Source: Prochlorococcus sp. AG-347-I21
GTDB taxonomy: Bacteria > Cyanobacteriota > Cyanobacteriia > PCC-6307 > Cyanobiaceae
Length of the DNA stretch: 64,000 nucleotides
Direction of reading: 5' to 3'
Assembly: GCA_003279055.1 (NCBI GenBank)
Contig: QCBP01000003.1
Location: forward strand, 62,001-126,000
The position numbers were made by a program, and so were the translations under genes. Below the pieces are notes generated by a model. It was not told the origin of the DNA. It searched no databases and worked only from the letters and a program-made list of their open reading frames with translations. Below, piece after piece: positions 12,971 through 63,458 of this stretch (its first letter is position 1; every line of letters starts with the position of its first letter).

Positions 12971-13031
12971 GGAATATCTTTTATTTTATCTTTTTGGAGT
13001 CCAATATATTATGCATACTTAAGTAGTGATC

Positions 13032-13943
13032 ATGAATGTAAGTATTGTTATCCCGACTTACAATAGATTACCTATATTAGAGAAATGTCTCGTTGCGCTT
13101 GAGAATCAAAAATTAAATACAAATATAAGTAATTATGAAGTAATAGTAGTTGATGATGGATCCACTGATGGAACAAGCGCATGGATAAATAAAAATAAAG
13201 CTAATCTTCCACACGTGATTCTGTTTCAGCAAGAACATGGAGGCCCTGCAATGGGAAGAAATCTTGGGATAATTAAATCAAAATATGAAATTATTATATT
13301 TATTGATAGTGATCTTATTGTTTTAGATGATTTTATAAATTGCCACGTAGATAAATTACTCGCCTCTTGGAGAAAAAATAATAAAAAATGTTTTACCTAT
13401 GGTTCGGTGGTCAATACATCTAATTTTCAAAATCCTCAGAGTGAAAAATATAAAATAATGGACACTTCTTTTGCTTACTTCGCTACTGGGAATGTTGCGA
13501 TATCAAAAGAATTGATTTTAAGTGTGGGATTATTTGATACTTCTTTTAGTCTTTACGGTTGGGAGGATTTAGAACTTGGAGAAAGATTAAAAAAAATTGG
13601 GACAAAATTAATTAAATGTCCAAATGCATTAGGTTTTCATTGGCATCCACCTTTTAAATGTGAACAAATAGATTCATTAATAGCTCAAGAAAAAGAAAGG
13701 GCAAAAATGGCTTTAGTGTTTTATAAGAAACATCCTAATTTAAGGGTTAGATTTATGATTCAATTAACTCCTCTACATAATTTACTTTGGCAAATTCTTT
13801 GCTTTGGAGGACTAATCAGTATTGAAAGAATCCTTCCTCTATTAAAATTTCTAGTAAATAGAAGAAGAAATAGACTTGCACTTGAGTTACTTAGAATTCC
13901 CCTAAATATGATTTACATTAAACAGTTAACCAAATCAAGATAA
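13032..13943 (+). CDS. Family 2 glycosyltransferase
   Basis: The 303-residue protein has the GT-A fold signature: MNVSIVIPTYNR at the start, VVDDGSTDGT near residues 40-49, and a nucleotide-sugar/metal motif IDSDLIV near residue 95. A later GWEDLELGERL matches the C-terminal acidic motif of family 2 enzymes. It probably transfers a sugar to a lipid or polysaccharide at the cytoplasmic membrane. The acceptor is unknown. The C-terminus has amphipathic, basic helices that could anchor it peripherally. A GTG two codons earlier is an alternative start. Confidence 0.88.
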   Translation: MNVSIVIPTYNRLPILEKCLVALENQKLNTNISNYEVIVVDDGSTDGTSAWINKNKANLPHVILFQQEHGGPAMGRNLGIIKSKYEIIIFIDSDLIVLDDFINCHVDKLLASWRKNNKKCFTYGSVVNTSNFQNPQSEKYKIMDTSFAYFATGNVAISKELILSVGLFDTSFSLYGWEDLELGERLKKIGTKLIKCPNALGFHWHPPFKCEQIDSLIAQEKERAKMALVFYKKHPNLRVRFMIQLTPLHNLLWQILCFGGLISIERILPLLKFLVNRRRNRLALELLRIPLNMIYIKQLTKSR

Positions 13944-13969
13944 AATACTTTTAGAAATACACATCACTT

Positions 13970-13977
13970 GCTAGAAT
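13970..13977 (+). promoter_or_regulatory. Candidate extended -10 promoter for rpsB
   Basis: The sequence contains TAGAAT at 13972-13977. A G one base further upstream completes a TGnTAnAAT-like extended -10 (TTGCTAGAAT, 13968-13977). Transcription would start near 13984, about 13 bases before the pseudoknot described next, so the whole structure would lie in the leader. No clear -35 box is seen. Confidence 0.45.
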
Positions 13978-13996
13978 ATTCAAATTAATTTCCACA

Positions 13997-14059
13997 CATC
14001 TGACAGTTTCGGGTGATTTATTAACAAAATTCCCCGTCAGATGGAGGCTAACCCGAAAC
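13997..14059 (+). ncRNA. Candidate pseudoknot leader of rpsB
   Basis: Two perfect inverted repeats are interleaved. Arm 1 CATCTGAC (13997-14004) pairs with GTCAGATG (14036-14043). Arm 2 GTTTCGGGT (14006-14014) pairs with ACCCGAAAC (14051-14059). The order 1-2-1'-2' makes an H-type pseudoknot with stems of 8 and 9 bp. A purine-rich GATGGAGG overlaps arm 1', and the second stem is followed by TTTTT (14061-14065), 12 bases before the rpsB start. Ribosomal protein operons often carry autoregulatory leaders, so an S2-responsive element is the simplest reading. A large-loop attenuator is an alternative. The pairing is seen; the function is inferred. Confidence 0.7.
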
Positions 14060-14070
14060 CTTTTTAAATT

Positions 14071-14775
14071 ATGGCTGTTGTATCACTATCTGAAATGATG
14101 GAAGCTGGTGCTCATTTTGGGCATCAAACTAGACGTTGGAATCCCAAAATGTCTAAATATATATATTGTGCAAGAAATGGAGTTCATATTATTGATCTTG
14201 TGAAAACAGCATTGTGTATGAACAATGCTTATAAATGGACAAGAAACGCAGCAAAAAGTGGTAAACGTTTCCTATTTGTCGGTACAAAAAAACAGGCATC
14301 AGACGTAGTAGCTCAGGAAGCTACTAGATGTGGAGCTGCATATGTAAATCAAAGATGGCTTGGAGGGATGCTTACTAATTGGACAACAATGAAAGCCAGG
14401 ATAGAAAGATTAAAGGATCTAGAAAGGATGGAAAGTAGTGGTTCAATCGCAATGAGGCCTAAAAAAGAAGCTGCAGTCTTAAGGAGAGAACTTGAAAGAT
14501 TACAAAAATACTTAGGTGGACTTAAGGGCATGAGAAGATTACCAGACGTAGTTGTTTTAGTTGATCAGAGAAGAGAATCTAATGCAGTACTAGAAGCTAG
14601 AAAACTAGATATTTCCTTAGTATCAATGCTGGATACAAACTGTGATCCGGATTTGTGTGAGGTACCAATTCCATGTAACGATGATGCCGTTAGATCTGTT
14701 CAACTTATTTTAGGAAGACTTGCAGACGCTATAAACGAAGGCAGAAAGGGTTCTAATGCTGAAAGAAAAAATTAA
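14071..14775 (+). CDS. rpsB: 30S ribosomal protein S2
   Basis: S2 binds the head-body junction of the small ribosomal subunit. The 234-residue protein is near-typical length. It opens with the family hallmark [18 protein letters not shown] and contains [18 protein letters not shown] and the C-terminal region ([14 protein letters not shown]). It lacks the long C-terminal extensions found in some bacteria. It heads the rpsB-tsf pair, the usual bacterial order, and its leader contains the candidate pseudoknot. Confidence 0.98.
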
Positions 14776-14818: not shown

Positions 14819-15475
14819 ATGGGAAACATTACAGCAAAACTTGTAAAAGATCTTAGAGATAAGACTGGAGCGGGAATGATGGATTGCAAAAAAGCACTTA
14901 ACGAAACTGACGGAAATGTCGAAAAAGCTTTGGAATGGTTAAGAAAGAAAGGAATCGCTAGTGCTGAAAAGAAATCTGGAAGAGTCGCAGCTGAAGGTTC
15001 AATTGGTAGTTACATACACACAGGATCAAGAGTCGGAGTTTTACTAGAGTTAAATTGTGAAACTGATTTCGTTGCTAGAGGTGATATATTTCAATCTCTA
15101 TTGAAGGATGTCTCAATGCAGGTAGCGGCTTGCCCAAATGTTGAGTACGTATCAATTGATGAAATTCCCGAAGATGTTGTGAAAAAAGAGAAGCAGATTG
15201 AAATGGGGAGAGATGATTTATCTGGAAAACCAGAACAAATTAAAGAAAAAATAGTTGAAGGGAGAATAGCGAAAAGACTTAATGAGCTGGTTTTGCTTTC
15301 ACAACCTTATATTAAAGATAGTTCTCTTACTGTGGAAGATCTCGTTAAACAAGCAGCGGCAAAAATTGGGGAAAATATTAAAGTAAGACGCTTTACAAGA
15401 TATACATTGGGTGAAGGTATCGAAAAAAATCAGATGGACTTTGCTGAAGAGGTTGCATCAATGCAATCAAATTAG
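14819..15475 (+). CDS. tsf: Translation elongation factor Ts
   Basis: EF-Ts is the nucleotide exchange factor that regenerates EF-Tu-GTP. The 218-residue protein is the short form common in cyanobacteria. It has the N-terminal UBA-like domain with signature [16 protein letters not shown] (about 11-26) and the second signature [13 protein letters not shown] (about 78-90). It follows rpsB by 43 bases with no terminator between. A frame overlapping its 3' end belongs to the next gene. Confidence 0.98.
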
Positions 15476-62804: not shown

Positions 62805-63458
62805 TTAGGGTTTTTTACATACAAATTTCTTTTTTCTTTTGGGATAAAGAGTGCGACATAAATAACATTTTGTTCCATCACAACCTCTTGCTGTGCAGTA
62901 TTCTCTGCCATAAAAGATTATTTGCAAATGTAAGGTATTCCAATCATTAATAGGAAATATTTTTTTAAGGTCTTTTTCTGTTTGAACTACACTATCTCCA
63001 TTTGATAGCCCCCATCTTTGTGCCAACCTGTGTATGTGAGTATCTACTGGGAATGAGGGTATTTTAAACACTTGAGACATTACAACTGATGCTGTTTTAT
63101 GACCTACCCCTGGAAGAGATTCAAGCTTCTCAAAAGAATCTGGGACCGTACCATTATGCTTCTCAATCAATAATTTAGATAAGTTATAAATGTTCTTTGA
63201 TTTTTGATTAGATAGACCTAAAAACTTTATGTATTTGTATATGCCATTAATACCTAGCTTCATCATCTTTTCTGGATTATCTGCAACCTTAAATAAGCTT
63301 TTTGTTAATTCATTAACCTTCTTATCTGTTGATTGAGCACTTAAAACTACGGCGACTAGAAGCGTATATGCATTTGTATGATCAAGTGGTATTGGAGGCG
63401 ATGGATATAGCTTTTTGAGTTCCTTGCTTATTATTTCTGCTCTTTCGGACTTTCTCAT
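62805..63458 (-). CDS. nth: Endonuclease III
   Basis: Nth removes oxidised pyrimidines and nicks the abasic site. The 217-residue protein has the HhH motif LPGVGHKTASVV (catalytic Lys121) and the catalytic Asp139 in VDTHIHRLAQRW. Cluster cysteines at 188, 193, 198 and 201 (with 214 also present) are spaced C-x4-C-x4-C-x2-C. This departs from the canonical C-x6-C-x2-C-x5-C but keeps the cluster region. It is divergent from the ABC ATPase gene. Confidence 0.95.
   Translation of the reverse strand: MRKSERAEIISKELKKLYPSPPIPLDHTNAYTLLVAVVLSAQSTDKKVNELTKSLFKVADNPEKMMKLGINGIYKYIKFLGLSNQKSKNIYNLSKLLIEKHNGTVPDSFEKLESLPGVGHKTASVVMSQVFKIPSFPVDTHIHRLAQRWGLSNGDSVVQTEKDLKKIFPINDWNTLHLQIIFYGREYCTARGCDGTKCYLCRTLYPKRKKKFVCKKP

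Follow-up and report, generated by a model that had tools for sequence, protein, structure and literature searches.

The leader of rpsB in Prochlorococcus sp. AG-347-I21 is a real RNA element, as the initial annotation of this DNA had correctly read it, and judged by its sequence it belongs to the t44 or "rpsB motif" leaders. It can thus be described as the Prochlorococcus copy of a widely conserved and known class, which Rfam does not annotate here. The decisive evidence for the fold, as far as sequence comparison can provide it, is its conservation across cyanobacterial leaders and the covariation of its first stem. These results offer base-pair evidence that one of the ocean's most abundant primary producers carries a ribosomal-protein leader RNA of a known kind.

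The element was studied in a window of 64,000 nucleotides (contig QCBP01000003.1, positions 62,001 to 126,000 of the forward strand), and all coordinates given here refer to the forward strand of that window. Two complementary pairs of segments make up the fold. The first, P1, joins CATCTGAC (13997-14004) to GTCAGATG (14036-14043) through 8 perfect base pairs, its arms being recognized by complementarity and covariation, while the second, a pseudoknot, joins GTTTCGGGT (14006-14014) to ACCCGAAAC (14051-14059) through 9 perfect base pairs, with arms recognized by complementarity and pairing counts. The arms follow one another in the order 1-2-1'-2' inside 63 bases (13997-14059) and the last of them ends 11 bases before the ATG of rpsB at 14071, an arrangement that the initial annotation had claimed and that the sequence bears out. 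Between the 5' arm of the knot and the 3' arm of P1 lies the P3 segment (14015-14035), a short hairpin of variable length identified by predicted folding and by the conservation of a CCC; the CCCC at 14032-14035 that ends it can pair, in predicted folds, with the GGG at 14011-14013, in competition with the pseudoknot. P1 is followed by a joiner, GAGGCTA (14044-14050), which together with G14043 forms a conserved GGAGG (14043-14047). This motif had been placed within the 3' arm of P1, of which only G14043 is part, as the last base of the arm, the rest belonging to the 7-nt joiner. The spacer CTTTTTAAATT (14060-14070) ahead of the start codon lacks a Shine-Dalgarno (SD) sequence, according to its letters and a count of 4-mers.

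Downstream, rpsB (14071-14775) encodes ribosomal protein S2 of 234 aa (TIGR01011 rpsB_bact, 326.2 bits, cut-off 76.3), and tsf (14819-15475) encodes elongation factor Ts of 218 aa (TIGR00116 tsf, 227.1 bits, cut-off 104.05) and is probably the second gene of the rpsB operon. Upstream, an ORF of 305 aa (13026-13943) ends 127 bases before rpsB, with a promoter-like box between the two, and resembles a glycosyltransferase, its best NCBIfam match being NF041875 EpsD (137 bits, below the cut-off of 370).

Interleaved perfect 8-mers alone are not rare in an AT-rich window: such 8+8 pairs within 70 nt formed four clusters on the + strand of the window, and 60 simulated windows held 53 such clusters. 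First-order Markov simulation of 200 windows produced 65 cases of an 8+9 pair within 63 nt and none with at least 9 G/C among the 17 pairs, a combination that the real window has once. The low probability of a chance origin that had been attributed to the arms therefore holds for the GC-rich 8+9 combination and not for interleaved 8-mers as such.

For the comparative analysis, the upstream regions of rpsB were gathered at 276 loci. The 252 that were read comprise 171 from the family of the window (f1, termed picocyanobacteria in this text) and 81 from the rest of the Cyanobacteriia; genus was assigned by identity for L001-L080 and by kinship labels for the G rows. Two loci at contig edges (L050 and L058) and 22 minus-strand matches were left out. 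The latter, absent from the main counts, were read separately, and 21 fit the strict pattern, with 8/8 P1 pairs in 16 and 7/8 in 5, 7/7 knot pairs in all 21, no SD in 21 and CCC in 18, while L131 fell outside the strict pattern, though both arms are present in its sequence. All 252 leaders could be anchored with GGGT and an ACCC-like word. The anchor ignores complementarity. It requires GGGT together with ACCC, ACTC or ACCT, and prefers a P1 that opens with CA and closes with TG or CG; as a result, it determines four pairs of the knot and two of P1 in full or in part. A looser anchor allowing mismatches found both blocks in 249/252 leaders, with GGGT in 249/249 blocks and ACCC in 247/249. Pairs were counted over 89 distinct arm sets, and the row counts (171, 109 and 81) may repeat the same genomes. 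Besides, an alignment termed A1 was prepared from 70 of the 252 rows with distinct arms and a P3 segment of at most 45 nt, after L204 and L205 had been removed from the 72 picked, as their P1 5' arm was mis-registered; both loci remain in the anchored counts over 89 sets and lower those figures. At the 3' arm of the pseudoknot, A1 sets the window's family one base out of step with the other rows, and the knot was counted from the anchored blocks instead.

A search for compensatory changes among many rpsB leaders had been proposed for both stems, and P1 gave the clearer answer. In A1, all seven of the pairs counted had changes on both sides, and 487/490 cells were paired (99.4%), against 83.7% in shuffles, none of 500 reaching the observed value; sliding the partner strand in register left 29-45% of the cells paired, no register being as high. 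Over the 89 distinct arm sets, 667/712 cells were paired (shuffle mean 537, 0/1000 as high), and 496/534 when the two anchor-favoured pairs were set aside. Plain nested folding, in which no pseudoknot is possible, formed P1 in 122/149 distinct leaders of the family and in 59/81 of the others, and folded the window leader into P1 with a P3 extension.

The pseudoknot is conserved as pairing potential and nearly invariant in the leaders compared, which leaves the second stem with conserved arms, as had been predicted, and with hardly any covariation. Across the 89 arm sets, 614/623 cells were paired (shuffle mean 607, 0/1000 as high), as were 258/267 cells of the three outer pairs, which lie outside the anchor-fixed core of four. 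Pair 1 showed two double changes and pair 2 one; by our own reading, pair 3 is C-G in nearly all cyanobacterial rows versus G-C in Escherichia coli. Within the window's family the arms vary by G-U changes only, all 245 cells being paired in the real and equally in the shuffled sets, and apart from these G-U changes no covariation of the knot was found there. Because the knot hardly varies, its support comes from conservation, from the few double changes and from the rows outside the family. Nested folding paired the two knot arms in only 22/149 family leaders and 13/81 other distinct leaders.

The initial annotation had made its reading depend on a transcription start no further downstream than 14010, and the start predicted here from sequence, near 13984 and about 13 nt before P1, lies upstream of that position as far as tested. 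The prediction is based on an extended -10-like promoter box, TGCTAGAAT (13969-13977, with the hexamer TAGAAT at 13972-13977), supported by its sequence and the conservation of its spacing. All 92 distinct leaders of the genus Prochlorococcus have a TA...T hexamer with at least 4/6 matches to TATAAT that ends 18-24 nt ahead of P1, and in 75/92 the distance is exactly 19 nt. The same loose test applied 50 nt upstream passes in 78/92 of these leaders, so the presence of a box is uninformative in this genus and only its fixed spacing counts. Such hexamers were found in 35/62 leaders from other genera of the family (control 4) and in 52/81 from other cyanobacteria (control 6), while a generic promoter scan of the locus gave 4 promoter-like sites against a shuffle mean of 5.4, that is, no excess. 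Since the -10-like box stands 19 nt before P1 in most of the Prochlorococcus leaders, the whole fold should be transcribed.

What looks new here, from the comparison of leaders, is a picocyanobacterial variant that combines the lack of an SD after the knot, a knot of 9 bp and a CCC that would compete for its 5' arm. A 4-mer of the SD sequence TAAGGAGGTGA occurs between knot and ATG in 1/171 family rows versus 81/81 rows of other cyanobacteria, in agreement with the parts of PMC5607370 available to us, which describe Prochlorococcus as not reliant on SD sequences and propose S1-dependent initiation. A knot of 9 bp is possible in 170/171 family rows, one of which has no base between P1 and knot, and one of 7-9 bp in the other cyanobacteria. 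The final 5 nt of the P3 segment include a CCC in 161/171 family rows versus 1/81 of the others. Nested folding of whole leaders paired all of the GGG with the P3 segment in 124/149 distinct family leaders and in 12/81 others. When the hairpin was folded alone, the end of the P3 segment took up at least three GGGU bases in 111/117 family leaders and 24/81 others, and at least two in 116/117 and 74/81, respectively. A degree of competition with the knot is thus widespread, and its CCC form alone is specific to the family. Exactly two GGGU bases were paired in 50/81 leaders of other Cyanobacteriia. Among these other leaders (e.g., L189, L190 and L251), TAC or TGC followed by a single base is a frequent end of the P3 segment, and it allows P3 to be extended into GGGU. 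To judge from these predicted folds, the contest between P3 and the knot may predate the window's family. The computed energies fit a balance between two folds, given that the median cost of releasing the knot arm from its nested pairs was 6.0 kcal/mol for family leaders and 4.3 kcal/mol for the others, and that the knot helix was worth -18.1 (9 bp) or -14.5 (7 bp) kcal/mol before any pseudoknot penalty. The competing CCC helix is without covariation proof, because the GGG does not vary.

We consider it likely, by analogy with the known class, that this copy of the t44 or rpsB-motif leader acts by S2-mediated translational autorepression of rpsB-tsf. Sequence comparison supports a layout in which P1 (8 bp) encloses the 5' arm of the knot and the small P3 hairpin, and in which the strand following P1 can close the 9-bp knot. 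In the proposed mechanism, S2 present in excess over its 16S rRNA sites, probably together with S1, would bind and stabilize this fold, and the stabilized helix would occupy the zone needed by the 30S subunit, lowering the translation of rpsB and with it that of tsf. Without S2, the CCC at the foot of P3 could capture the 5' arm of the knot, or an initiating ribosome would melt the 3' arm, and translation would proceed. The AUG is 11 nt from the last base of the knot, which places that base inside the usual 30S footprint, and stabilization of the knot should therefore block initiation. The initial proposal of a cis-acting pseudoknot in the rpsB leader is backed by conservation, by the covariation of P1, by the single copy before rpsB and by homology with the T44 leader of E. 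coli. In the available part of the review PMC10931766, E. coli S2 is described as repressing rpsB-tsf translation through the leader with the help of S1, by a mechanism called unclear; it also reports that in gammaproteobacteria the operator does not include the ribosome-binding site, which counts against the proposed mechanism.

It is conceivable, although we regard it as doubtful, that picocyanobacteria have rebuilt the S2 operator as a two-state switch in which the 9-bp knot and the CCC contend for the GGG, the GGAGG, 23 nt before the AUG, being a landing signal in one of the states. A related and rather improbable explanation would give the leader an activating role, with the GGAGG of the joiner as a displaced ribosome-binding signal that the 9-bp knot brings near the AUG in these SD-less picocyanobacteria. 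The family does keep GGAGG in 165/171 rows and has an SD 4-mer in only 1/171 (81/81 in the others), and nearly all of its rows (170/171) can form the longer knot; yet GGAGG occupies the same place in E. coli and in 68/81 SD-bearing cyanobacterial rows, so its conservation needs no role in initiation, and the S1-dependent initiation proposed for Prochlorococcus in the part of PMC5607370 cited above also argues against it. The strong hairpin close to the predicted 5' end could instead serve as a structural end that sets only mRNA stability or a standby site and does not respond to S2, which is very unlikely given that the joiner and arm sequences are shared with the E. coli operator and that the single copy stands at the gene of S2, pointing to recognition by this protein. 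Least probable of all is attenuation, with the pseudoknot or its 3' arm and the following U-run as an S2-dependent terminator: CTTTTT does follow the 3' arm directly in the window, and TTTT follows the knot in 94/109 rows of the genus Prochlorococcus, but the U-run is almost confined to this genus (1/62 other family rows and 2/81 other cyanobacterial rows, which keep the fold), and the sole terminator-like hit of the scan (13997-14015; 1 versus a shuffle mean of 0.7, hence no excess) does not take in this U-run. The local hairpin behind that hit, formed by the P1 5' arm with CGGGTG, was dropped, being predicted in 3/149 family and 3/81 other leaders. Of the translational and attenuation models that had both been left standing, translational autorepression by S2 is thus favoured and attenuation disfavoured by the poor conservation of the U-run.

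Prochlorococcus has few regulatory proteins, according to published abstracts. Because a family without SD has kept the operator, its leader represents a natural experiment on S2 repression in the absence of that signal, and the lineage-specific changes of the picocyanobacterial leader deserve a test.

The assignment to the t44 class was examined with a model, R1, built from the 70 cyanobacterial leaders without E. coli. In the genome of the window R1 found one clear copy, before rpsB (E 1e-18), the next match having an E of 1.4; a second match in the window (62822-62857, E 0.16) was taken as chance. Across the phylum, 51/116 genomes were matched, among them 50 of the 52 that were itemised as belonging to the same class or closer, while the list did not itemise 45 non-matching genomes; the remaining match, a weak one (G577:C2:2849-2892, E 0.002), came from a genome outside the class. 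Rfam, which the initial annotation had named as a check, gave no match in the window for RF00127 (t44) or RF01815. Among 13 genomes, its t44 model hit the rpsB leader of two, a member of the same genus (29.9 bits) and a distant cyanobacterium (25.7 bits; cut-off 44), and the genome of the window itself yielded nothing at E 10; in a set of 20 loci it matched 5, none over cut-off and the window's locus not among them. The rpsB sRNA model RF01815 weakly matched 4/20 loci, each below the cut-off of 40 (17.7-28.7 bits) and each from a cyanobacterium outside the window's family, the window being unmatched. Matches of t44 away from rpsB (E 3-9) and those of SNORD12, astro_FSE, mir-3613 and Enterococcus-1, far below their cut-offs, were taken as chance. 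The reverse search succeeded: R1 matches the E. coli T44 leader end to end, with 26.5 bits and an E of 1e-5 in 66 kb.

Among the titles listed from a library of open-licence papers, none concerned the rpsB leader of Prochlorococcus. The part of PMC7247131 available to us names rpsB only in the row for an L13 leader, and the corresponding parts of PMC7368042, PMC2518516 and PMC5607370 hold no mention of rpsB. The closest description is that of Meyer et al. (2009; PMC2704228), whose accessible part places the rpsB motif, pseudoknot included, upstream of rpsB in Cyanobacteria among other groups. As in the window, P1 of that motif is capped by a junction with P2 and P3, and the strand between P2 and P3 pairs with a 3' extension after P1. 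The same part states that P2 is absent or very short in Cyanobacteria, which matches the leaders studied here: the P3 segment, 11-128 nt long and predicted to form a hairpin, is preceded by the 7-nt core knot arm, before which only 1-3 nt stand as anchored, leaving no room for P2. The exception is L205 (family f20), with an insertion between P1 and the knot arm, where P2 would sit, and the knot ATCGGGT/ACCCGAT. A further leader, L204 (family f16), is divergent and shortened and has CCACCTGG/CCAGGTGG as P1 and TACGGGT/ACCCGTA as knot, and the cyanobacterial model matches part of it only (18.7 bits). Five pseudoknot pairs are predicted outside Firmicutes in the same part of PMC2704228, compared with the 7-9 bp of other cyanobacteria and the 9 bp of 170/171 family rows found here.

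The comparison with E. coli T44 (tff; RF00127) is the most direct one. By our own reading, the K-12 leader consists of CACGTATC/GATACGTG, GGGGT/ACCCC and GTGGAGGC, in matching order and register. It differs from the window in its longer inner part, in a pseudoknot that we read as 5 bp and in the SD-like AGAGG before its ATG, and agrees with it in the CACA with an 8-bp P1, the GGGU arm, the GUGGAGGC joiner and the ACCC arm, all in the same register.
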